Assembly (NCBI GenBank): GCA_016875395.1
Contig: VGRF01000027.1
Span: 1 to 63,494 of the forward strand
Direction: 5' to 3'
Origin: Deltaproteobacteria bacterium
GTDB taxonomy: Bacteria > Myxococcota_A > UBA9160 > UBA6930
DNA length: 63,494 bases
A program made the translations under genes and the position numbers. Below the pieces are notes generated by a model. It searched no databases, was not told the DNA's origin, and saw only the letters and a program-made list of their open reading frames with translations. Below, piece by piece: positions 16,379 to 28,222 of this stretch (position 1 is its first letter; each line of letters starts with the position of its first letter).

Positions 16379-16419
16379 CGATTCGTCCTACGCCGCCTAC
16401 GGCGGCGTGGGACGAATCG
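16379..16419. repeat. Long hairpin (19-bp stem, 3-base loop)
   Basis: CGATTCGTCCTACGCCGCC, then TAC, then a right arm pairing 18 of 19 bases with one G-T wobble. It has no T-tract. It covers the end of a truncated minus-strand frame and marks the left border of the thioredoxin/ApbE island. It may be a terminator or the scar of a palindromic mobile element. Confidence 0.6.
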
Positions 16420-16628
16420 GCGCGAAGCCAATCAGGGCATCCAACTGCGCCCCGGTCCCCAGCCCATGCATCGGCAGAGCCGATGCGAAGCGGCCCACGT
16501 CGTCGTGCAGCGCCATGTAGTTGAGCACGATCGACTCGGCGAGCAGCTGCACGTTGTTGCTGATGCGCGACGCGTTCGTCTCGACGTCGCCGCTCGGGCG
16601 ATAGTGGCCGATCTGGCGGCCGGGCCGC
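16397..16628 (-). pseudogene. 3' remnant of an unidentified gene
   Basis: On the minus strand a frame with normal coding character ends at a TAG at 16397. The last 75 or so residues include VETNASRISNNVQLLAESIV and LHDDVGRFASALPMHGLG, with a codon pattern (G/C in third positions) like the real genes around it. No plausible start codon exists before the frame enters the thioredoxin gene on the opposite strand, so only the 3' end of a gene is left. I do not recognise the family. The break coincides with the start of the redox island, suggesting the island's arrival cut this gene. Confidence 0.4.
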
Positions 16629-17114
16629 GTGAGCGCATCGCTCGCGCTCGAGGAAGGAGATCGCGCGCCCGACTTCGAAGCGCGCAGCGTCGTCGGCGAC
16701 GCCGAGGTCGCGCTCCACGCAATGCGCGGCAAGGTCGTCCTCGTCGACTTCTGGGCCTCGTGGTGCACGCCGTGCCAGGCCGCGATGCCGCAGCTCGAGA
16801 AGATCTCGAAGGAGTTCCCCGCCGACCGCTTCGTCGTGCTCGGCGTGAACGTGGACAAGAAGCTCGAGGACGCGCGCAAGGCGCTCGCCAAGCGCCCGGT
16901 CTCTTACCTGAACGCGAGCGACCCGACGGGGATGCTCCCGAAGCGCTTCGGCCTCGAGACGATGCCGACGACGTACCTGATCGACGAGACGGGCGTCGTC
17001 CGGCTCGTGCACCGCGGCTACCGCAACGGAGACATGGACGAGATCCGCAAGCACGTCCAGAAACTCCTCGACAAGAAGAAGAGCTTAACATGCACGGCAA
17101 GCTCGTGTTGTTAG
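16629..17114 (+). CDS. TlpA/ResA-like thioredoxin-fold protein
   Basis: A 161-residue thioredoxin-like protein with active site WCTPC (Cys46, Cys49) in VVLVDFWASWCTPC, the cis-proline segment MPTTYLIDETG, and the APDFEARSV start typical of TlpA/AhpC-like proteins. GTG 16629 is the only usable start: an in-frame stop lies at 16602-16604. Members are usually exported, yet no signal peptide is visible, so its 5' end may be lost at the island border. The C-terminus LTCTASSCC runs 25 bases into the DUF4266 gene and ends at a TAG inside a TTGTTAG motif. In this island it probably handles cysteines of the Cys-rich DUF4266 lipoprotein (inference). Confidence 0.82.
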   Translation: MSASLALEEGDRAPDFEARSVVGDAEVALHAMRGKVVLVDFWASWCTPCQAAMPQLEKISKEFPADRFVVLGVNVDKKLEDARKALAKRPVSYLNASDPTGMLPKRFGLETMPTTYLIDETGVVRLVHRGYRNGDMDEIRKHVQKLLDKKKSLTCTASSCC

Positions 17115-17302
17115 GGATCCTCGCGATGCTCGCGAGCGCGTGCACGCACGTCGACCCGTGGGAGCGAAATCTCCTCGCGCGGCCCGACATGGCGTGGGAA
17201 GTGGACGACGTGACCGCGACGCAAGAGAACCACACCTACTTCGCCAAGGAGGCCGCGATGCCCGGCGGCGGCGTGGGTGGCGGCGGCTGCGGCTGCAACT
17301 GA
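17090..17302 (+). CDS. DUF4266 lipoprotein with a Gly-rich CGC tail
   Basis: A 70-residue protein. The signal peptide ends in LASAC, a lipobox with Cys18 as the lipidation site. It continues with the family core THVDPWERNLLARPDM and ends in a Gly-rich tail, GGGVGGGGCGCN. DUF4266 proteins are small and typically sit next to DUF3570 genes, as here. Their function is not established. The tail resembles metal- or cofactor-binding, or peptide-modification substrates, but that is speculation. The gene overlaps the thioredoxin gene by 25 bases and precedes DUF3570 by 21 bases, so the three are surely one transcript. Confidence 0.88.
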   Translation: MHGKLVLLGILAMLASACTHVDPWERNLLARPDMAWEVDDVTATQENHTYFAKEAAMPGGGVGGGGCGCN

Positions 17303-17323: not shown

Positions 17324-18565
17324 ATGCGCGAGAGGACGAAGCGACGTGCCCGCACGGTGAGGCGCGCTGAAGAGCGGCGCGCGCTCGGCACGCTGGCGGC
17401 GCTCACGAGCAGCGCGCTCGCGCTGCTGCCGGGGCTCGCGGGTGCCCAGACCGACAACGGCTGGGAGCTCGACTACGGCTACTCGATGTACTCGGAGGGC
17501 CGCATCGGGGCGAGCAAGATCAGCGCCGGCAGCCGCGACCGCTACGACATCGACACGCACCAAGCGAAGCTCGCCGTGCCGATCGGCTCGCACATCTCGC
17601 TCGGCCTCGACGTGATGTACGAGAAGATGACGGGCGCCTCGCCGTGGTTCATCGAGCCGAACCTCGCGGGCGATCCGGTCGTCGTGATGACCGGCGCGAG
17701 CATTCAGGACACGCGCACCGACATCCTCGGTTCGGTGAAGTTCATCGGCGAGAAGTCGCGCACGACGCTCGCCGGCGGCACTTCGTTCGAGGACGACTAC
17801 TCGTCGATCAACTTCAGCTTCGGCCGCGAGAAGGACTTCAACGAAAAGCTCACCACCTTCTCGTGGGGCATCGGCTTCTCGACGGATGACATCGATCCGA
17901 CCGCGACCTCGTTCGATCCGAACCCGAGGAAGCGCACCAAGAAGACCGGCACGTTCTCGCTCGGCCTCTCGCAGGTGATCGACCGCGCGTCCGTCGCGCA
18001 GACTTCGCTCACGCTGCAGTACGCCGACGGCTTCCTCAGCGACCCGTACAAGCTCGTGCACGCGAGCGGCACGAACCTCGCCGACCACCGCCCCGGCACG
18101 CGCACGCAGCTCTCGTGGCTCACGCGCTACCGGCGCCACTTCGAGCGCGCGCGCGGCTCGCTCCACGCCGACTACCAGCTGGCGTGGGACACCTTTGGAG
18201 TCGTCGGCAACACCCTCGAGCTCGGGTGGTATCAGGACGTGTTCGGCCTGGTCACCGTCGCGCCGTCGGTCCGTTACTACACGCAAAGCGCCGCCGACTT
18301 CTATGCGCCCTATTTCGCCGCGGGCTTGCTGCCGAGCGAGAACGCATCGAGCGACTACCGGCTCTCTCCCTACGGCGCGATCTCGTACAAGCTGCGAGCG
18401 GATCTGCGTCTCGGCGATCTGCTCAAGGTTGCGAATGCGACGCTCGGCGTGCAGTACGAGCACTATCAGAGCGGCGGCAACTTCCGACTCGGCGGCGTGG
18501 GCACCGAGAACCCGGGGCTGGTCGACTTCGACGTTCTTCTCGTGACTTTGCGGACCGGGTTCTAG
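17324..18565 (+). CDS. DUF3570 outer-membrane beta-barrel protein
   Basis: A 413-residue DUF3570 protein. A basic, hydrophobic export signal ends LPGLAGAQ near residue 42, followed by alternating beta-strand sequence and a C-terminal Phe (VTLRTGF), as in outer-membrane barrels. GGAGGGGAACGCG precedes ATG 17324. Two TGAS tetrads lie at residues 103-106 and 123-126 (KMTGASPWF and VMTGASIQD), resembling the Ser/Thr-Gly-Ala-Ser/Thr site where ApbE enzymes attach FMN; an ApbE gene follows. The barrel assignment is firm, flavinylation is a hypothesis. It probably works with DUF4266 in an envelope redox chain. Confidence 0.88.
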   Translation: MRERTKRRARTVRRAEERRALGTLAALTSSALALLPGLAGAQTDNGWELDYGYSMYSEGRIGASKISAGSRDRYDIDTHQAKLAVPIGSHISLGLDVMYEKMTGASPWFIEPNLAGDPVVVMTGASIQDTRTDILGSVKFIGEKSRTTLAGGTSFEDDYSSINFSFGREKDFNEKLTTFSWGIGFSTDDIDPTATSFDPNPRKRTKKTGTFSLGLSQVIDRASVAQTSLTLQYADGFLSDPYKLVHASGTNLADHRPGTRTQLSWLTRYRRHFERARGSLHADYQLAWDTFGVVGNTLELGWYQDVFGLVTVAPSVRYYTQSAADFYAPYFAAGLLPSENASSDYRLSPYGAISYKLRADLRLGDLLKVANATLGVQYEHYQSGGNFRLGGVGTENPGLVDFDVLLVTLRTGF

Positions 18566-18787: not shown

Positions 18788-19720
18788 ATGCGCGTCTTCT
18801 CGTTCAAAGCGATGGGCAGCCCGTGCGAGATTCGCATCTACGGCGACGAGCGCGCGGACGCGATCGCGGCGGCGGCGCAGGCGGAAGTGGTGCGGCTCGA
18901 GGCGAAGTACTCGCGCTATCGCGAGGACAGCTTGGCTTCGCGCATCAATCGCAGCGCGGGCGATGCGCGCGGCGTCGAGGTCGATGGCGAAACGGCGCGC
19001 CTGCTCGACTATGCGGCGACGGCGTGGCGCGAGAGCGAGGGCCGCTTCGACGTGACGTCGGGGATCCTGCGGCGCGCGTGGAACTTCAAGTCGGGGCGCG
19101 TGCCCGAGCAGCGCGAGATCGACGCGCTGCTTCCGCTGATCGGCTGGGATCAGGTCGTATGGCATGCGCCGCGCATCGTGCTCCCGCGCGCGGGCATGGA
19201 GATCGACTTCGGCGGCTACGTGAAGGAGTACGCGGCGGACCTCGCGGCTGCGAAGTGCCGCGAGCTCGGCGCTCGCCACGGGCTCGTCGATCTCGGCGGT
19301 GACCTCGCCGTGATCGGGCCGCATCCGAGCGGTGTGCCGTGGCGCATCGGAGTGCGCGATCCGCGCGCACCCGAGCGCGCCCTCGCGTTCGTCGCGCTGA
19401 GCGGCGGCGGCCTCGCGACGAGCGGCGACTACGAGCGCTGCATCGTCGCGAACGGCACGCGCTACGGGCACGTCCTCGATCCGCGCACCGGCTGGCCCAC
19501 GCGCGGGCTCGCGTCCGTAACGACTGCGGCGCCTGCGTGCCTCGTCGCCGGCACGCTCACGACGAGCGCGATGCTGCGCGGCGAACGCGGCGGCGCCTGG
19601 CTCGACGCGCTCGGCGCGAGCTCGCTCTGGGTGCGCGACGACGGACAACTGGGCGGACGCCTCGCCCCGCGCGCGAGCTCGGCCCCGACGCATTCGCACG
19701 CAACGCCCGCGCGCATCTGA
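18788..19720 (+). CDS. apbE: FAD:protein FMN transferase (ApbE family)
   Basis: A 310-residue ApbE. The FAD-binding signature appears as GGYVKEYAAD (residues 142-151; usual form GGxxKGxxxD, so Glu replaces Gly at 147), the metal/FAD motif as DPRTG (231-235), and FDVTSGIL near 88. ApbE covalently attaches FMN to Ser/Thr of exported redox proteins. Most are periplasmic lipoproteins; this one starts MRVFSFKAMGSPC with no signal peptide, so it would act in the cytoplasm unless the start is misplaced. It is the last gene of the island, and its likely target is the DUF3570 protein or a substrate elsewhere. The 222-base gap to DUF3570 holds a repeat. Confidence 0.9.
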   Translation: MRVFSFKAMGSPCEIRIYGDERADAIAAAAQAEVVRLEAKYSRYREDSLASRINRSAGDARGVEVDGETARLLDYAATAWRESEGRFDVTSGILRRAWNFKSGRVPEQREIDALLPLIGWDQVVWHAPRIVLPRAGMEIDFGGYVKEYAADLAAAKCRELGARHGLVDLGGDLAVIGPHPSGVPWRIGVRDPRAPERALAFVALSGGGLATSGDYERCIVANGTRYGHVLDPRTGWPTRGLASVTTAAPACLVAGTLTTSAMLRGERGGAWLDALGASSLWVRDDGQLGGRLAPRASSAPTHSHATPARI

Positions 19721-19721
19721 G

Positions 19722-19828
19722 CGCAAGCGAAGCGCGCAGCGAGCCGCAGGCGAGCGAAGTTAAGTGCGGTAGCAGCCGAGCGAAGTTAAGTGCGGTAGCA
19801 GCCGAGCGAAGTCACTGCGGCAGCGGTG
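19722..19828 (+). repeat. Stem-loop repeat copy F running into a 26-bp tandem repeat
   Basis: The block GCAAGCGAAGCGCGCAGC is followed by GCC-GCA-GGC and GAGCGAAG, then by three copies of a 26-bp unit starting at 19751, 19777 and 19803 (unit begins CGAGCGAAGTTAAGTGCGGT). Units 1 and 2 are identical; unit 3 is diverged and reaches into the last codons of the secretin gene on the other strand. It looks like local duplication of the repeat's right end. With no spacers between units it is not a CRISPR. Confidence 0.75.
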
Positions 19829-22262
19829 CGATCAGCTCGGGCGACCAACCACGCTGCTCGATCTCGGGCAACGCGTCGATCGCGTCGATCGCATGTGGAA
19901 AGCCCGCGACGACGACATCAAAGCGCTGCGCGCCGTCCCACGTCCAGGCGACGACGCGCGCTCGCGTGCCGGCGATGTCGCCGACCTCTGCGGCGAGCGC
20001 CTGCGCGTCCGCCTCGCGCGTGCGCGTCGCGACGAGCAGCGCCCACGTCGCGCGTTTCCCGCGCAGCGCGCCGTGGCGAGCGAGTGCACGCTCGTGAGCC
20101 GTGCGCATGCGGATCGAGTCCGCGAGGCGCTCGTCGGCGCTGCGCTCGATTCGCGCTTCGAGCGCCATCACGATGCGGCGCTCGCTCTCCTGCGACTGCC
20201 GCTGAGTGAGCAAATGCCCGAGCACCGGCGTGTCCATCAGATACGGCGGCCCCGTCGCGATCTCGGAGCCGCCGCGCTGAAGCAGCATGCCGAGCACCGC
20301 CATGCCGCCATCGTCCACGCGTGTGTGCGCCTGCAGCGTGCGCTTCACGAGCGTGGGCCCGACGGCCGCATTCCCGAGGCTCGGCGCGACGCCCGTGACC
20401 TCCAGCTCGACGGCGATGAGAACGTCGCCCGCTTGGCCCGCAACGGGCTTGAGGCGCAGGCGCACGCCCACGTCTTGGCGCTCGATGTTCACGCGAGTCG
20501 TCAACGGATCGTCCGTGCTTCCCCCGGCGGAGTCGCTTGCCGCAGTCGGAATCGGCACGTTGAAGCCCGCCGAGAGCTCGTGCTCTTCGCCGCTCGTCGT
20601 GAGCAGCTGCGGCTGCATCAGCGAGCGCACGCGCACCTCGCCCGCCCGCGCGCGAATCTGCGCGGCTTCGCGCACGTTGACGTTGACGACCCGCCCGTCC
20701 GGAGTCGTGACCGGGATCGTGAACAGGCTGCGACGCCGATATCCACCGAAGAACGTCGGGTCGACTCCACCAGGCGGCGCGAGGCCGAAGGGATCACCGA
20801 TGCCGACACCGAAGACCGTGCGCCTCGGGTTCGACGGATCGGTGGAGGGGAGGAATGCGTCGACCCCGAGCGCGAGGTCGCCCGTCGTCGTCACTTCGGA
20901 GATGTGCGCGCGCACGGAGATCGTCGGCGGTGAGACGTCGAGCTGCTCGAGCAAGCGCCGCACCTCGCGCTGCGCCTCGGCGCCTCCGCTCACGAGCAGC
21001 GATCGGCTCGGCGCGTCGGCCACGACGGCGGCGCGGCCGAGCTGAAGCGCGGGAGCGCGGCCCGGCGCGCCCGCAGCGGAGCCGCCGCTCGCGATTCCCG
21101 TGAGCAGCGTCGCGACCTTCTCGGGGTCCGCGAAGCGCATGCGAAACACCGCGACGTCGCCATCGATTTCGGGTGCGACATCGAGCTCGTCGATGCGCGC
21201 GCGCAGCGCGGCGAGCGCCTCGGGCTCCGCGCGCGCGATCAGCGCGTTGGTGCGCTCGTCGAGAAAGAGCTCGGCGCGCGCGCGGCCGGTGAACGGGTCG
21301 ACGAGTGAGTCCGCGAGCAGCGCCTGCAGCTCCGCGGCACTGCGCCAGCGCGGGCGAAGCACGGCCAGCTCGCGCCGCGACGTCTCGTCGAGGGCGCGCG
21401 CGAGCGCGTGCCAGCGCTGCACTGCGGACTCGGGCCCGATCAGGACGACGCCGTTGGTCGGCGCGTGCGCGACCGCCGTGACCGTCGCGCCGGAGAACGT
21501 CTGCATCGCGTTCACGATCTGCTCCGCGGTGGCGTCGCGGAAGTGCACGAGCGCCGTGACGAGGCGCGCGCGGTCGCGCGAGAGCGTGCGACCTGCGCGC
21601 GGCGCACGGCTGCGCGCGTCGTCGAGCGGCAGCACGAGCCACTCGCCCTGAGCCGCAGGCACCGCCGCGAAGCCTTTGCCCTCGAGCGTCGCGTGCAGAA
21701 TCTCGAGCGCTTCACTCTTCGTGACGGGCGCCGTGACGATGACGGTCGCCGTGCCCTGGAGGCGGTCGTCGTAGATGAACGTCTCGCCCGTGATGCGCTG
21801 TACCTCGTTCACGAGCTGCGCGAGCGGCGCGCCCCGGAGGCGCAGCGTCACGCGCGATTCCTCTCGCGCGAGCCGTGCGAACTCGATCGAAATCAGCGGG
21901 CCTTGGCGGGAGAGCTGCGCGGCGGCGCCGGGCGCGCGCTCGATCCGAACCGTGACTGCGCCCGATTCCTCGCTCGCGCTCACACCGCGAATCGCGGTGC
22001 CCGCGGCGGGAGGCAGCGCACGCGCCGCTCGCGGCCCGAGCACGGCGCCGGGCAGCTCGAGCACGACGCGACCGGGTGCTTCGACCACGAGCCGCGGCGC
22101 CACCGCGCCGTCCACCTGTACGAGTACGTGATCGCCGCGCGGCCCGCGGTCCACCTCGATGGAGCGCACGCGCGCGGGCTCCTCGTCCTGCGCGCGCCCG
22201 AGCTGCGGCGCGCCTAACAACAGCGCCGTGAGACCGATGCGCAGCGCACGCGAGCGGATCAT
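19812..22262 (-). CDS. Secretin (GspD/PilQ type) with a SPOR-like C-terminal domain
   Basis: A protein of about 816 residues. It starts with a signal peptide (LTALLLGAPQLGRAQ), then an AMIN-like beta domain (residues ~30-135), an STN/secretin N0 domain (APLAQLVNEVQRITGETFIY), N1-N2-like repeats, and a secretin core containing SLMQPQLLTTSGEEHEL and MAVLGMLLQRGGS. The last 80 residues (ATWALLVATRTREADAQALA) look like a SPOR peptidoglycan-binding domain, unusual after a secretin. ATG 22262 starts the signal peptide; a TTG at 22301 is the alternative. No type II or IV pilus genes are nearby. It may be the outer-membrane gate for the ExbB/ExbD system transcribed away from it (inference). Confidence 0.8.
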   Translation of the reverse strand: MIRSRALRIGLTALLLGAPQLGRAQDEEPARVRSIEVDRGPRGDHVLVQVDGAVAPRLVVEAPGRVVLELPGAVLGPRAARALPPAAGTAIRGVSASEESGAVTVRIERAPGAAAQLSRQGPLISIEFARLAREESRVTLRLRGAPLAQLVNEVQRITGETFIYDDRLQGTATVIVTAPVTKSEALEILHATLEGKGFAAVPAAQGEWLVLPLDDARSRAPRAGRTLSRDRARLVTALVHFRDATAEQIVNAMQTFSGATVTAVAHAPTNGVVLIGPESAVQRWHALARALDETSRRELAVLRPRWRSAAELQALLADSLVDPFTGRARAELFLDERTNALIARAEPEALAALRARIDELDVAPEIDGDVAVFRMRFADPEKVATLLTGIASGGSAAGAPGRAPALQLGRAAVVADAPSRSLLVSGGAEAQREVRRLLEQLDVSPPTISVRAHISEVTTTGDLALGVDAFLPSTDPSNPRRTVFGVGIGDPFGLAPPGGVDPTFFGGYRRRSLFTIPVTTPDGRVVNVNVREAAQIRARAGEVRVRSLMQPQLLTTSGEEHELSAGFNVPIPTAASDSAGGSTDDPLTTRVNIERQDVGVRLRLKPVAGQAGDVLIAVELEVTGVAPSLGNAAVGPTLVKRTLQAHTRVDDGGMAVLGMLLQRGGSEIATGPPYLMDTPVLGHLLTQRQSQESERRIVMALEARIERSADERLADSIRMRTAHERALARHGALRGKRATWALLVATRTREADAQALAAEVGDIAGTRARVVAWTWDGAQRFDVVVAGFPHAIDAIDALPEIEQRGWSPELIAPLPQ

Positions 22263-22334: not shown

Positions 22335-22928
22335 CTACGGCCCCCGGCGTCCGCCGAGCCAGCTCGGCAGCCACTTCCGCTTCTTCTTCGGCTTCTGCGG
22401 CTTCGCGCGCTTCGGGGCGTCCTTCTCGCCGTCGCCGCCGAGCCAGCGCGGCCACGAGTCGGGCCACGGAAACTCCATCTCCGCGAGCGGCTTCTGGTGG
22501 AACGCGTAGCGCGCCGAGAGCACGAACTCGTGCGCGCGCAGGTCGAGATCGAGCTCGCCGACCTGGACCGGCGGAACCGGAGTGGACGCGCCGGTGGCGG
22601 TGTCACGCGTGTCGCTGACGAAGTCCCACTGCCGTCCGTAGATGAACTCGCTCTCGACTCGGAACGCGGTGCCCCACGAGTCCCACTTCTGCGGGAGCAC
22701 TTCTTCGAACTCGAAGCCGAAGCCGATCGTCACGCCGTATCCGAGCGAGGAGTCGCCATCGCTCCCGACGACGCGGCGCTGGTTCGCGATGATCTCGCCG
22801 GTCGAGTTGTCGCGGCCGAGCGACTGCAGGAAGGTGCCTCCGGCGTAGAACTCCGCTGCATGCGCGGCGGGCGCGAGGCTCGCGGCCGCTAGCAAAGCGC
22901 CCGCAAAAGTGGCGAGTCGACGACGCAT
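22335..22928 (-). CDS. Exported beta-barrel-like envelope protein
   Basis: A 197-residue protein with a clear signal peptide (LLAAASLAPAAHAAEF). About 115 residues of amphipathic beta-strand pattern follow (YGVTIGFGFEFEEVLP, FVLSARYAFHQKPL), then a Trp-rich segment (FPWPDSWPRWLGG) and a very basic Lys/Pro tail (KPQKPKKKRKW). I do not recognise the family. It looks like a small outer-membrane barrel with a basic tail that could touch lipid A or nucleic acid. It is divergent (66-base gap) from the ExbD-like gene and upstream of the secretin on the same strand, so it belongs to the same envelope region. Confidence 0.6.
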   Translation of the reverse strand: MRRRLATFAGALLAAASLAPAAHAAEFYAGGTFLQSLGRDNSTGEIIANQRRVVGSDGDSSLGYGVTIGFGFEFEEVLPQKWDSWGTAFRVESEFIYGRQWDFVSDTRDTATGASTPVPPVQVGELDLDLRAHEFVLSARYAFHQKPLAEMEFPWPDSWPRWLGGDGEKDAPKRAKPQKPKKKRKWLPSWLGGRRGP

Positions 22929-22994: not shown

Positions 22995-23495
22995 ATGTCG
23001 GCGCGCGGATTTCCGCTGTTATGCGCCATGGCTGCCAGCGATCAATCCGTACACGGCGCTCCGGTGTGGCTCTTCTCCTTCGTCGATCTGGCGTTCCTGC
23101 TGCTGATCGCGATGACCCAGTTCCAATCTGGGAAGGAGCTCGCCGTCGAGCTCGGCGAGATCGTGGTTCCGAAGATCAACACCGAGGCCGAGGGCATGCC
23201 CTCGTCCGCGAGCATCGCCTGGCAGCTGCGCGTACATCCGACGGGCGACGGCACAGCGAGCCCGTTCGAGCTGATGCATCCGAGCGATCCCGCGTCGACG
23301 GCGCGCATCTCCGAGAGCACGCTGCGCGCGAAGCTTGGCGAGCTCGCGAAGCGCGGCGGCGCGCGCCCCGTGCTCGCGCCCGATGCCGATTCGCGCAGCC
23401 AAGACTTGCTCACGGCGGTGAGCGCAATCGAGGAGGCATGGCCGCAGCGCCGTCGCGTCACGGTGACGCCGCTCGCGGGCGGCCCGGCGCAGTAG
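22995..23495 (+). CDS. ExbD/TolR-like proton-channel subunit
   Basis: A 166-residue protein (155 if ATG 23028 is used; neither start has a good ribosome-binding site). It has a short cytoplasmic N-terminus and one membrane helix, LFSFVDLAFLLLIAMTQF, with the essential channel Asp at residue 31 of this start. A periplasmic domain follows that ends like ExbD/TolR (TLRAKLGELAKRGGARPVLA, then VSAIEEAW). ExbD-type subunits use the proton-motive force to drive work across the periplasm. It is the first gene of the five-gene operon; its ExbB partner is the last, an unusual order. Confidence 0.78.
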   Translation: MSARGFPLLCAMAASDQSVHGAPVWLFSFVDLAFLLLIAMTQFQSGKELAVELGEIVVPKINTEAEGMPSSASIAWQLRVHPTGDGTASPFELMHPSDPASTARISESTLRAKLGELAKRGGARPVLAPDADSRSQDLLTAVSAIEEAWPQRRRVTVTPLAGGPAQ

Positions 23496-23502
23496 GCGCG
23501 CG

Positions 23503-24774
23503 ATGGGCCACCGCCTCCGCCACACCTACGGCCACGGCGCCGCGAAGATCACGCTCGCACCCGCGTTCACGCCGAGCCCTTACGCGCGCGCGCTAACGGC
23601 GCGCGGCGACCTCGCCGGCGGCCTCGAGGAGCTGCGCAAGGCGGGCGCCGGCCGCATCGCGGCGCGCCTCGCCCTAGCTGGTGGCGGCGGGCTCGTCGCG
23701 GCGCTCGCGCTCGCGTTCGTGCTCTCGCCGTTCTTCGCGCGCCCGCCCGACAGCGGCGAGACGCAGATCGTGATGGCGATGCCGAAGCTCGAGGAGGAAG
23801 AGCTGCTGCCGGAGCCCGAGCCGGAACCGGTGGTGCCCGAACCCGAGCCGGAGCCCGAGGTGATCGCGCAGGAAGAGCCCGTGCCGCTGCCGGAGCCCGA
23901 GCAGGTCATGCCAGAGCCGGAGCCCGAGCCGGTGAAGGTGGTGAAGAAGCAGCCGCCGCCTCCGCCGCCGATGCCTGCAATGCCCGCGCCCGCTGAGCCG
24001 CCCAGGGAGTTCGTGCCGACGCCCGCTCCGGTGCGCGTCGCGCGCGAGCCGGTGAAGCAGCCGCCGAAGGTGGTGAGCATCGACCCGCTCTCGCCCGTGC
24101 CCGCGGTTCCGTCCGAGGAGCCCGCGCCGCTGCCGCAGACCACGCGCGTCGCGAAGAACGCGCCGGCCGCGAACCGCCCCGCCCTGCCCGCGCTCGCGGA
24201 CTTCGCGCCGATCGGCGACCCCGCGCCCACGGGCGCTCCCGCCGCGGTCGCCTCACGCGCGGTGCGCACGAACGTGGTCGCACGCAACAACACGCCCTCG
24301 AATCGCCCGGTCGCGTTCGCCGCGGCCGCCAGCGCGGCGCCCCCCGCCGCGTTCGACGAGAGCGCGGTGGCGCCCGCGCTCGCGACGCGCAACGCCGTGA
24401 AGCGCCCCACGAGCGCGCCCACGGCGTCGAGCCGCCCGCAGAGCCTCGGCTTCAACGCGGGGACGCCGAGCGCCTCCGCCGCCGACGTGACGCCCCAGGC
24501 CGTGGGCCGCACCGAGCGCGCGCTGCCGCAGCGCAGCACGGGCGGCGCGCAGGGCGAGAACCTCGCTGCGGTGCCCCTCGGCTCGCTGGCTGCGTGCGCC
24601 ACGGACCGCGAGGAGGACGAGCGCAAGATGGCGGTGCTCGGCGCGGTGCGAGGACGCACTGAATGTTCGAGCGCCGCCGGCCGATACCGCTTCGTGGAGA
24701 CGAAGAATCTCAACGCATTCCTGATGTGGATCGAGCGCGCGCCGAACCGGCCCGCGGTCGACCGCTGCGTCTAG
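23503..24774 (+). CDS. TonB-like Pro/Glu-rich membrane-anchored energy-transducer candidate
   Basis: A 423-residue protein. It has a cytoplasmic N-terminus of about 50 residues, one membrane helix (residues ~52-76) and a long periplasmic stretch with repeated PEPEPEP, KKQPPPPPPMP and Ala/Pro-rich segments, as in the TonB spacer that crosses the periplasm. The C-terminal 65 residues (TKNLNAFLMWIERAPNRPAV) do not resemble the TonB C-terminal fold and contain three Cys, in AAC, TEC and DRC. So the partner at the outer membrane is probably not a TonB-dependent receptor. It starts 7 bases after the ExbD-like stop. TonB-like by architecture only. Confidence 0.65.
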   Translation: MGHRLRHTYGHGAAKITLAPAFTPSPYARALTARGDLAGGLEELRKAGAGRIAARLALAGGGGLVAALALAFVLSPFFARPPDSGETQIVMAMPKLEEEELLPEPEPEPVVPEPEPEPEVIAQEEPVPLPEPEQVMPEPEPEPVKVVKKQPPPPPPMPAMPAPAEPPREFVPTPAPVRVAREPVKQPPKVVSIDPLSPVPAVPSEEPAPLPQTTRVAKNAPAANRPALPALADFAPIGDPAPTGAPAAVASRAVRTNVVARNNTPSNRPVAFAAAASAAPPAAFDESAVAPALATRNAVKRPTSAPTASSRPQSLGFNAGTPSASAADVTPQAVGRTERALPQRSTGGAQGENLAAVPLGSLAACATDREEDERKMAVLGAVRGRTECSSAAGRYRFVETKNLNAFLMWIERAPNRPAVDRCV

Positions 24775-24809
24775 CTTCGCCTCGCACTCGAATGCTTAGG
24801 GGGTTGAGC

Positions 24810-26906
24810 ATGTTGTTAGGACGTGTCCGCATCGCCGTCGTTGGCGCGGCTCTTGCCGCGCTCTCGTTCGCGCAGATCGCCAGCGCAGAAGGCAACGCGT
24901 GGGACGGCTACCTCGATTACGCCTACGTGTACTCGTCGGCGGACTCTGCGGCGCTGAAGGCGCGGATCGAGCAGTACGGCAAGGAAGCCGGCGTGCCGCT
25001 CGACCGGTACATCACCGAGCAGTTCGAGTCGGTCGCGGCCAGCGACGAGCAGGGCCCCGACGACGAGCTGCGCATCCGCCGCCAGGCGATCGGCTACCTG
25101 CTGCTCTATCTCGCGAACGCCGATGCCGACCAGCTCGAGAAGAGCGTCGACGCGATCGACGAGCTCAGCGAGCAGCTCGGCCGCAGCGAGAATCACTACT
25201 GGTATCACTACATCCACGCGCACGAGGCGCTCGAGCTCGGGCGCGAGCACGACTTCGTCGGCTACGTGCTCGACCTCTGGCAGAAGGTCGTGGTGCCGCT
25301 CGAAGAGCCGTATCAGACGATGCAGGCGCTCTCGCTGCACGACTCGCCGGCCGCGGGCTTCGCTGCGTCGCTCCCGTATCTCTACGAGAACGTCGCGCGC
25401 CTGATCTTGTTACGCAGCCAGGAGCTCGGCATCGACAGCGGCCTCGACCCGCTCGGCTCGGTGATCCGCATGCTGGCGGACGGCCGCGTCGGCGGTCACC
25501 CCGACGTGATCCCGGCGAGCGCATCGTCGAAGGAGTACCTGAGCCGCATTCTCGATCGCCTCGACGGCGCCGAGAGCGACGCCGGCTCGCTCACCTTCAC
25601 GCTCGCGCTGTTCGAAGCCGCGAAGCACCACGACACCGCGCGCGGCAAGCTCGCGAGCGAGGGCCTCGGCGACGCCACCGTGAAGGCGCTGCAGGTCGCG
25701 AGCGCGAGCTATCAGGTCGCGCTCGACCGCGCCGACACGGTGCAGGGCGAGGCGGCGGTGCACACGCGCACGCTGCGCCTGCTCGGCGAGATCTACGCCG
25801 CGAAGCAGCGCCTCGGCGTCGACCCCGAGATCAACACCACGTTCACCATCGAAGACGCGATCGACGTCTACAACCGCATGGCCGAGGCGGGCAGCGAGGG
25901 CTGGGGCGAGCTCGGCTACACGCAGAAGCCCGAGTACGTGCTCGCGATGCGCACGCTCTGGGAAGAGATCCAGGAGTCGTCGCTCAACATCGCCGACTAC
26001 TACCTCGCGAAGAGCCAGGAGCTGCCGCACAAGGCCGACGAGCACGCGCGCAACGCCGCGCGCCTCTACACGCGCTACCTGCAGCTGTTCCTCTACTACG
26101 CCACGAACGAGGGCAAGGAAGGCGTGCCGGACTCGGCGTACTTCGCCGCGCACGAAGCCGCGCGCGGCGTCGGCGACTCCTACCTCGTGTACGCGAAGCG
26201 CCCGACGATCGAGGAGGTCGACCTCGCGATCCGCCAGTACCGCGCGGCGTTGAAGATCTTCCCCTTCGATCGGCAGATCTGGCCGGGCATCACCGCAGCG
26301 CTGCAGCGGCAGGGCCGCGAGAGCGAGTACCTGAGCCTCGTGCGCCCCGCGGCGGAAGGCGCGGTGCGCTCGCGCGCGCTCGCGCGCTGGATCGGCAGCA
26401 ACGAGCCGGAGAGCACGCGCTTGAAGACGCTCGTCGGCGCGTTCTCCGACAGCCTCGTGCTCGTGTACCTCGGCTACGCCGAGGGCAAAGGCATCGACGA
26501 GCTGGAGGCCGGCCTCGCGAAGCTCAAGGTGCAGCGCGACGAGGTGAAGTCGCGGCTCATGGGCCTGCAGTCGCAGCTCGCGGGCGGCTCGCAAACCGCG
26601 CCCCCGGCGTCGATGGGCGACGATGGCGAAGTCGTGGGCAAGGTCGGCTCGGGCGAGAAGCTCGACGCCGCTCAGCTCGCGCAGCTGAATCGCGAGATCA
26701 TGGAGACGAGCGCGCTGCTCGAGCGGCTCGACACGCAGATCGAAGCGCGCCGCCGCACGCTGCCGCTCTACAAGTCCACGCTCGAGACCGACGGACTCTC
26801 GGGCGACCTGCGCACGCGCCGCGATCACCCGATCCACGCGCTCTTGCGACGCATGTACCACGAGCACGCCGACGTCGACGTGACCGAAGCGGCGTACGAG
26901 GAGTAG
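24810..26906 (+). CDS. Large periplasmic alpha-helical (TPR-like) protein of the ExbB/ExbD operon
   Basis: A 698-residue exported protein. AGGGGG lies 6 bases before ATG 24810, and a signal peptide follows (VGAALAALSFAQIASAEG). The body is almost all helical with TPR-like pairs (SDAGSLTFTLALFEAAKHH; VDLAIRQYRAALKIFPFD), then a C-terminal coiled coil (about residues 620-670: LNREIMETSALLERLDTQIE). I recognise no named family. Position and architecture suggest a periplasmic scaffold linking the TonB-like rod to the outer-membrane lipoprotein encoded 4 bases downstream. A TTGTTA motif overlaps codons 2-3. The frame is open upstream to 24663, but that overlaps the previous gene. Confidence 0.7.
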   Translation: MLLGRVRIAVVGAALAALSFAQIASAEGNAWDGYLDYAYVYSSADSAALKARIEQYGKEAGVPLDRYITEQFESVAASDEQGPDDELRIRRQAIGYLLLYLANADADQLEKSVDAIDELSEQLGRSENHYWYHYIHAHEALELGREHDFVGYVLDLWQKVVVPLEEPYQTMQALSLHDSPAAGFAASLPYLYENVARLILLRSQELGIDSGLDPLGSVIRMLADGRVGGHPDVIPASASSKEYLSRILDRLDGAESDAGSLTFTLALFEAAKHHDTARGKLASEGLGDATVKALQVASASYQVALDRADTVQGEAAVHTRTLRLLGEIYAAKQRLGVDPEINTTFTIEDAIDVYNRMAEAGSEGWGELGYTQKPEYVLAMRTLWEEIQESSLNIADYYLAKSQELPHKADEHARNAARLYTRYLQLFLYYATNEGKEGVPDSAYFAAHEAARGVGDSYLVYAKRPTIEEVDLAIRQYRAALKIFPFDRQIWPGITAALQRQGRESEYLSLVRPAAEGAVRSRALARWIGSNEPESTRLKTLVGAFSDSLVLVYLGYAEGKGIDELEAGLAKLKVQRDEVKSRLMGLQSQLAGGSQTAPPASMGDDGEVVGKVGSGEKLDAAQLAQLNREIMETSALLERLDTQIEARRRTLPLYKSTLETDGLSGDLRTRRDHPIHALLRRMYHEHADVDVTEAAYEE

Positions 26907-26910
26907 GCGC

Positions 26911-27477
26911 ATGACGAGCACGCGACATTTCCTCGCGCTCGCGTTCGCGGGCGCCCTCGCCGGCTGCGCCAGCTACGAGCCCGTGCCGCTCGAGGACATC
27001 GAGCTCGCGCGCGTGCACAAGCCGCTCGGCGGCGAGACGCTCGCGGAGAAGCACCGCGAGATGCAGCGCACGCGCGACGACATCGTGCGCCACCTGCGCA
27101 CGCTCGACTCGATGGTCCGGCGCGATGACGACGACGGCATCGTGGTCTTCAAGTCGTTCTTCTACGGCTACATGGACGACCACGTCGAGAAGCTGCTCGC
27201 GAAGGACTGGACGAGCCACCACCCCGAGCTCGCCGGCCTCGACGCGAGCATTCGCTTCAATGCGATCGAGGTGCTCGCGAAGCTCGACTCCCCGCACCGT
27301 GCGGAGGCGCTGATCGACGACGTGAAGCTCCGCTACCGCGGGCGCGGAAACCTGATGGTCGACTACCCGGCCGGCCGCCGCGTGAACCTGACCAAGGCGC
27401 TCGAGCTCGTCGAGGAAGAGTATTGGCGCGACGACGACCCGAACGAGCGCCTCAACGCGGACATGCCGGAAGAGTGA
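26911..27477 (+). CDS. Lipoprotein of the ExbB/ExbD operon
   Basis: A 188-residue protein with a lipobox LAGC (Cys19) after the hydrophobic stretch FLALAFAGALAGC. The mature part is helical and charged (EKHREMQRTRDDIVRHLRTL; ALELVEEEYWRDDDPN). I do not recognise a family. The residue after Cys is Ala, so outer-membrane sorting is likely. GAGGAG, 8 bases ahead of ATG 26911, lies in the final codons of the preceding gene; the genes are 4 bases apart and coupled. Probable role: outer-membrane anchor of the complex (inference). Confidence 0.7.
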   Translation: MTSTRHFLALAFAGALAGCASYEPVPLEDIELARVHKPLGGETLAEKHREMQRTRDDIVRHLRTLDSMVRRDDDDGIVVFKSFFYGYMDDHVEKLLAKDWTSHHPELAGLDASIRFNAIEVLAKLDSPHRAEALIDDVKLRYRGRGNLMVDYPAGRRVNLTKALELVEEEYWRDDDPNERLNADMPEE

Positions 27478-27528
27478 GCGAGCGGCGCTTCGCCGCGCCC
27501 AGCGCGGCGAAGTCGAGCGGAGATCGAA

Positions 27529-27575
27529 CCGCAAGCGAAGCGCGCAGCGCGCCAACGGCGAGCGGAGAAACAAAG
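27529..27575 (+). repeat. Dispersed stem-loop repeat, copy H (short)
   Basis: CGCAAGCGAAGCGCGCAGCG followed by GCC-AAC-GGC and GAGCGGAG: a short member of the stem-loop family. It lies in the 133-base gap between the lipoprotein and the ExbB-like gene, the only sizeable gap in the operon, so it could tune expression of ExbB relative to the upstream genes. Confidence 0.65.
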
Positions 27576-27610
27576 CTGGCCTCGATGCCACGAGATGAGG
27601 AGTGACCCCC

Positions 27611-28222
27611 ATGGCCCCCGAAGCAACCTGGAACGCCGGCTCGATCGCGGCGCTGATCGTCACCGTCATGGCGCTGATCGCCGTTTGGTTCCCGTTCTGG
27701 TGGGGGCTGCGCGCCTGCATGCGCGGCTTCGCCGTGACGCGCAAGGTCTCGGCGGGCGAGATCCAGAAGGCCCTCGAGCGCGAGACGCCCGGCGTGAACG
27801 AGCCGATCGCGATTCAGGTGCTGCGCGTGCTGCGGGCGTCGCAGAAGGACAATCCCGAGAAGATGCCCATGGCGTTCTTGATCGACGCCTCGCGGCAGTA
27901 CGTGTCGAACGAATACGAGGCGAACTACGCCAAGCCGGTGACGCTGTACTCGAACATCCTGCCGCCGATCGGGTTCATCGGGACGTTGTTAGGGCTCGTG
28001 GTGCTGGTGCTCGCGAAGGACGGCGGCGACGCGATGCTCGAGCTGGTCGGCCTCGCCGGCGCGGTCTCGAAGTCGATCTGCGCGCTGTTCGGGTTCATCG
28101 TGCTGGAGTCGCTGAAGATTCGGCTGTACGGGCGGATGCTCGCGGGGCTGGACGAGGCGACGGGCATCGTGTCGCGATCGGCGCAGGCGCCGGCGCGGAA
28201 GGCGGAGGCGGCGCTGGCGTAG
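27611..28222 (+). CDS. MotA/TolQ/ExbB-family proton-channel protein
   Basis: A 203-residue protein with three membrane helices in ExbB/TolQ arrangement: helix 1 at about 11-35, then a cytoplasmic helical loop. Helix 2 is ILPPIGFIGTLLGLVVLVLA (cf. the family's GLLGTVxG motif), and helix 3 is VSKSICALFGFIVLESLKI with polar residues facing the channel. It would assemble around the ExbD-like subunit. GAGGAG stands 8 bases before ATG 27611; a GTG at 27602 overlaps that site and is less likely. It is the last gene of the operon. Confidence 0.82.
   Translation: MAPEATWNAGSIAALIVTVMALIAVWFPFWWGLRACMRGFAVTRKVSAGEIQKALERETPGVNEPIAIQVLRVLRASQKDNPEKMPMAFLIDASRQYVSNEYEANYAKPVTLYSNILPPIGFIGTLLGLVVLVLAKDGGDAMLELVGLAGAVSKSICALFGFIVLESLKIRLYGRMLAGLDEATGIVSRSAQAPARKAEAALA

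Follow-up and report, generated by a model that had tools for sequence, protein, structure and literature searches.

Few routes are known by which ion-motive force at the inner membrane reaches the outer membrane (OM). The TonB2 system of Vibrio includes a TPR protein, TtpD2, which is encoded after tonB2 and is essential for TonB2 uptake (PMC6957404), while the Agl-Glt machinery has OM barrels as well as TPR proteins alongside ExbB/ExbD and a TonB-like rod (PMC3169522). ExbBD/TonB-powered export has also been described in myxobacteria for PopC/Oar (PMC6434023). A further relevant assembly is the recognised flavinylated electron-transfer cluster of DsbD, thioredoxin, DUF4266, DUF3570 and ApbE, in which ApbE flavinylates DUF3570 at [S/T]GA[S/T] and DUF4266 features a CxC motif (Meheust et al. 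2021, PMC8238504). Here we analyzed a five-gene operon, A-E, in a 63,494-nucleotide stretch of contig VGRF01000027.1 from a Deltaproteobacteria bacterium, hereafter referred to as the window. A description of this operon was not found in our literature search. Its most interesting aspect is a redox linkage: the main A-E lineage is physically tied to an extracytoplasmic redox cluster, a new association seen through several gene orders.

Operon layout and the ExbB/ExbD-like pair

The initial annotation, made from the sequence of the operon, had proposed an envelope-spanning energy-transduction system of five co-directional genes, with a proton-channel pair at its two ends, and this reading is partly supported by our results. 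The ORF list placed all five genes on the + strand in the order A-B-C-D-E, as did synteny in relatives (Table 1). The ORFs are tightly packed, except for a gap of ~130 bp upstream of E. Hydropathy analysis predicted a single transmembrane (TM) helix each for A and B, three for E, and a signal peptide for C. Pfam and NCBIfam scans of the five proteins and their family alignments returned only weak ExbB/ExbD matches, and no model covered the C-terminal domain of B (B-CTD), C or D.

Table 1. Features of the A-E operon and its flank in the window
Feature	Position	Strand	Details
A: ExbD-like	23028..23495	+	alternative start 22995; one N-terminal TM helix, motif FSFVDLAFLLLIAM
B: TonB-like transducer	23503..24774	+	cytoplasmic N-terminus, TM residues 56-74, Pro/Glu-rich rod, Cys-containing C-terminal domain
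Leftover B 3' end	24775..24806	+	LRLALECLGG then TGA 24804-24806; fits the family's last helix
C: exported TPR-like alpha-solenoid, 698 aa	24810..26906	+	coiled-coil hairpin residues ~559-658
D: lipoprotein, helical	26911..27477	+	lipid-attachment Cys19 (LAGC-A)
E: ExbB/TolQ-like	27611..28222	+	alternative start 27602; three TM helices
Small OM beta-barrel protein adjoining A	22335..22928	-	Pfam OMP_b-brl in relatives E=1.6e-11
Diverged GspD-like secretin	19812..22262	-	AMIN, N0, repeated Secretin_N, secretin domains
ApbE (FMN transferase) homologue, presumed family	18788..19720	+	relatives' homologues 55-65% identical, beside DUF3570
DUF3570 protein	17324..18565	+	Pfam E=6.7e-62
DUF4266-like small lipoprotein	17090..17302	+	C-terminus GGGGCGCN (CxC); homologues in relatives
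TlpA-like thioredoxin	16629..17114	+	alignment with seven relatives
cl15 (Tat-exported partner) remnant	16418..16642	-	last ~75 residues; 51% identity to residues 380-455, E=8.9e-16

A scored below threshold against Pfam ExbD (E = 0.004-0.005), as did the family members tested, and it gave no meaningful match among PDB sequence profiles. Despite these sub-threshold Pfam scores, A shows the ExbD-type feature of a conserved Asp in a single TM helix: the motif FSFVDLAFLLLIA is kept throughout the family alignments with its Asp invariant, and this residue pairs with FIDVMLVLLIIFM of E. coli ExbD in hhalign. For E, PF01618 (MotA_ExbB) was matched by 17 of 19 family members (best 1.4e-6), the window's own copy falling below the cut-off. 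Moreover, hhalign aligned E with TolQ over the GFIGTxxG region (E = 0.0012), and PDB sequence profiles gave weak TolQ/PomA matches, the solved TolQ structure being reached at E = 0.035. With its retained ExbB/TolQ core (GxxGTxxG) and three TM helices, E has the characteristics of an ExbB-type subunit. The two proteins thus belong to the MotA/TolQ/ExbB-ExbD/TolR superfamily, in keeping with the channel pair first proposed. Gene content, motifs, predicted folds and conservation together make a motor function of A-E quite likely, in which E and A, the latter with its channel aspartate, would form the ion channel or motor of the inner membrane.

The rod protein, the periplasmic scaffold and the lipoprotein

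B had been described as a TonB-like rod whose C-terminus is not TonB-like, and its topology fits this description. A conserved YGxGA-type motif lies in the cytoplasmic N-terminus, the rod is composed of 29% Pro and 14% Glu, and the family alignment revealed four conserved cysteines in a C-terminal domain of ~85 residues. The AlphaFold model of this domain from an intact relative (pLDDT 89.6) has a helix-three strands-helix fold. PF03544 (TonB_C) was matched by 0 of 20 B family members at E <= 1, and B had no NCBIfam match, including the GltG/AgmX-type tail NF033768. B-CTD likewise matched no Pfam family, nothing meaningful among PDB sequence profiles, and neither E. coli TonB nor TolA by profile. 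Structural searches with Foldseek/VIA yielded nothing above background (best PDB match E = 0.39); TonB/TolA chains were absent among the matches listed, and the model is still compatible with a TonB/TolA-type fold.

The 698-residue protein C, which had been annotated as exported and helical, carries a signal peptide and is all-helical in its AlphaFold model (pLDDT 88, pTM 0.81), its helices forming a TPR-like solenoid and a long coiled-coil hairpin. TPR consensus proteins matched C by both sequence and fold, and we are confident in the modelled solenoid; the best structural matches were generic TPR and designed helical repeats, and thus no specific relative is claimed. Relatives of C are 40-61% identical. 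The lipoprotein assignment of D was borne out by its LAGC lipobox, whose Cys is invariant across 21 members. No Pfam family was found for D, nor did it show a profile match to Pal past the signal peptide; short designed-repeat matches among PDB sequence profiles were judged to be chance. The initial view that the periplasmic partners are unlike known families holds with respect to Pfam and NCBIfam models, but not wholly for C, a TPR-like solenoid, since TPR proteins already occur in the TonB2 (TtpD2; PMC6957404) and Agl-Glt (PMC3169522) systems. We suggest that B would be anchored in the inner membrane by its one helix and span the periplasm via the Pro/Glu-rich rod, and that its cysteine-bridged C-terminal domain would engage the TPR/coiled-coil scaffold C and the OM lipoprotein D.

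The window's contig encodes no plug domain of TonB-dependent receptors, no TonB_C domain and no OmpA/Pal domain, and A also has no OmpA match, in agreement with the initial statement that no receptor or Tol/Pal gene is near. These observations bear on a TonB2-like energiser of nutrient uptake, in which A-E would drive TonB-dependent receptors whose genes lie elsewhere and C would act as TtpD2 does. Such a function would suit the 31 plug-domain receptors found elsewhere in the genome and the requirement for a TPR protein in TonB2 uptake (PMC6957404), but it is unlikely given that B lacks TonB_C, that nine TonB_C proteins, none of them B, are already present at other loci, that the contig lacks a receptor, and that the operon lacks both a second ExbB (TtpC) and TtpB. 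Outside the window, the same genome carries two ExbB-like domains near a TonB_C protein (G000:C52:1268-3599), resembling the TonB2/TtpC arrangement.

Conservation, redox linkage and state of the window's copy

The A-E operon recurs across genera, mostly in the same order, in more than 20 genomes of one class, all MAGs labelled Myxococcota/Deltaproteobacteria, with one to three copies per genome. Of 60 other genomes at the order level, 10 contained strong relatives of C; across the phylum, searches with C detected them in 22 of 379 sampled genomes (the window's own counted), all from one class, with 4 more marginal. A pattern scan of genomes from 84,980 species, which could miss distant relatives, returned 22 loci; every one lay in a MAG carrying the label Myxococcota, Deltaproteobacteria, 'Proteobacteria' or 'bacterium'. 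In tblastn searches with A, B, D and E, the A-B-C-D-E order around C was retained in most contigs at ~25-60% identity, which excludes chance or mis-annotation. Synteny is therefore not lost in relatives, and profile searches did not place A-E in Ton, Tol-Pal, Mot or Agl-Glt.

The spread of the operon is patchy, covering about a quarter of the class, which is unlike a general envelope system. This counts against a Tol-Pal- or Agl-Glt-type machine for envelope maintenance or motility with B as the GltG/TolA counterpart, as do the single ExbD where Agl has two, the absence of the NF033768 tail and of TonB_C from B, and the absence of TolB/Pal from the contig. Even with the shared cast of ExbB/ExbD, rod, exported TPR protein, OM lipoprotein and small OM barrel (PMC3169522), we consider this assignment very unlikely.

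In relatives, A-E is accompanied by DsbD-TlpA-DUF4266-DUF3570-ApbE and by three exported partners (cl15, cl16 and cl17); a small OM barrel and a diverged GspD-like secretin are usually present as well. The initial picture of the operon missed the flanking DsbD/DUF4266/DUF3570/ApbE genes that relatives keep, which lie outside the interval it considered. Among the three partners, cl15 has a twin-arginine signal and no Pfam match, cl16 is secreted with a LamG domain and CxxCH, and cl17 is secreted with CxxCH and a PSD2-like match (E = 0.14); they also form a conserved trio, cl17-cl16-cl15 (L110 8081-12949 and homologues). The flank in the window has the DsbD-type composition, with a thioredoxin-like protein, the DUF4266 CxC, a gene which we take to be of the ApbE family, and a DUF3570 protein in which two TGAS motifs (about 17630-17641 and 17690-17701) are predicted to be flavinylated; DsbD is present in relatives but not at this locus.

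The arrangement of these modules varies among genomes. The cl15-16-17 genes are divergent from DsbD...ApbE in G007, followed by secretin-barrel and then A-E (G037 is the mirror image), while in G035, G055, G229, G343 and G261 cl17-16-15 directly precede A-E and the flavin cluster is on the other side. Other orders are A-E, then secretin, then cl15-16 (G129); D-E, secretin, cl15-17 and flavin cluster (G166); and A-E facing cl15 (G305). Proximity retained despite such rearrangement argues for a functional linkage between A-E and the redox modules. In a set of 91 genomes from the class, DUF3570 was found in 18 of 22 genomes with C and 6 of 69 without (Fisher p = 1.5e-10), and cl15 in 18/22 versus 7/69 (p = 5e-10), both p values ignoring shared ancestry. 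These counts are conservative, because G166 was scored as operon-negative, yet D and E stand beside the redox cluster at the end of one of its contigs (L134). Where contigs were long enough to show it, DUF3570 lay within about 12 kb of A-E in 10 genomes; redox clusters without C were found in G017, G049 and G053. Taken together, we regard a functional link between A-E and the redox cluster as fairly probable.

The link to the secretin is weaker. Its subfamily lies within 17 kb of A-E in 7 of 10 genomes but also occurs alone in many C-negative genomes, and the idea of the secretin as an exclusive A-E partner was dropped. Members without adjoining operon or redox genes include L123, L124, L125, L126 and L127.

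In the C tree, redox-linked operons occupy one part and a separate lineage (7 rows) has no redox flank, suggesting that the A-E core can work without the redox cluster. This second lineage includes L023, L024, L082, L084 and L089, and no shared partner was found in its flanks beyond genus-level blocks.

The window's own copy differs from its relatives in several respects. B stops at an in-frame TAG (24772-24774), whereas intact relatives run ~11 codons further, so that the last helix and a conserved Cys are removed; the next in-frame stop, a TGA, lies just 5' of the ATG of C. We rejected codon reassignment of TAG, since A, C and E also end in TAG. Compared with relatives, the OM barrel has lost about 80 internal residues in frame, and alignment indicates that TlpA has lost the N-terminal signal region present in seven relatives. 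Moreover, the locus lacks DsbD and the three exported partners apart from the cl15 remnant, cl17 was not found in the 96%-complete genome, and E is changed at 7 of 34 near-invariant positions, the highest number among 19 members. The cl15 remnant abuts the signal-less TlpA, in a configuration that looks like a deletion also removing cl16, cl17 and DsbD. While the ORFs of the initial annotation stand, it had overlooked that B ends 11 codons before the family-consistent end, as well as the signs of decay in the barrel and TlpA. To judge from its sequence, this copy appears to be degenerating and is probably failing. That it is a decaying relic that does nothing, a reading compatible with the family-level explanation, is slightly favoured by these lesions; set against it are the intact and normally conserved A, C and D, and the draft state of the genome (96 contigs), in which an assembly or base error could account for any single lesion.

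Proposed role and comparison with known systems

We tentatively favour, with confidence just short of even, a reading of A-E as a motive-force-driven trans-envelope transducer of the Ton/Tol/Agl kind, which in the main lineage would serve the OM or surface redox apparatus encoded alongside. Besides DsbD and TlpA, this apparatus would comprise DUF4266 with its CxC motif, flavinylated DUF3570 together with ApbE, a pair of proteins bearing c-type-haem motifs and one protein exported by the Tat route; the secretin and small OM barrel usually accompany them. A-E probably serves surface redox or export, with a putative client. Its precise job may be to energise loading, opening or export at that OM site, although we hold this assignment with low confidence. 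A bolder and similarly doubtful proposal is a further machine beside Ton, Tol and Agl/Mot, in which an ExbBD motor with a cysteine-bridged rod end would power a surface electron-transfer complex, possibly via the secretin; the TPR scaffold and lipoprotein would then possibly act as a relay to flavinylated DUF3570 and the c-haem-motif proteins, for their placement or operation.

Such a system would lengthen the short list of routes to the OM, adding one with a transducer end domain, a scaffold and a lipoprotein of its own. The tie to DUF3570 may offer a lead on what orphan electron-transfer proteins need for OM assembly or operation. Moreover, three protein families outside Pfam/NCBIfam profiles gain concrete, testable partners.

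The flank of A-E resembles the DsbD-type flavinylated cluster (Meheust et al. 2021) in its DsbD, thioredoxin-like, DUF4266, DUF3570 and ApbE genes, whereas by term counts the main text of PMC8238504 mentions neither ExbB nor secretin. The operon itself departs from Ton, Tol-Pal, TonB2, Agl-Glt and MotAB in at least one tested feature each, mainly because of its transducer C-terminal domain and missing partners. Compared with the MotAB stator, A lacks the peptidoglycan-binding OmpA-like domain of MotB. Vibrio TonB2 (ttpB2-ttpC2-exbB2-exbD2-tonB2-ttpD2) shares the ExbB/ExbD/TonB-type genes and a TPR gene after the rod gene, but A-E has a single ExbB, no TtpB/TtpC, an additional lipoprotein and a rod without a match to the TonB C-terminal domain. 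Tol-Pal (TolQ-R-A-B-Pal-CpoB) has in common a TolQ-like protein, an ExbD/TolR-like protein, a rod, an OM lipoprotein and a coiled-coil/TPR periplasmic protein, in contrast to which A-E has no TolA/TonB domain match and no TolB, D is not Pal-like, and the distribution is patchy. Similarly, the Agl-Glt system of Myxococcus has an ExbB/ExbD motor, a bitopic TonB-like rod (GltG), exported TPR proteins, lipoproteins and small OM barrels; A-E, however, has one ExbD-type protein where Agl has two (AglQ and AglS), B has no match to the AgmX/PglI-type tail, and the operon is linked to redox genes instead.
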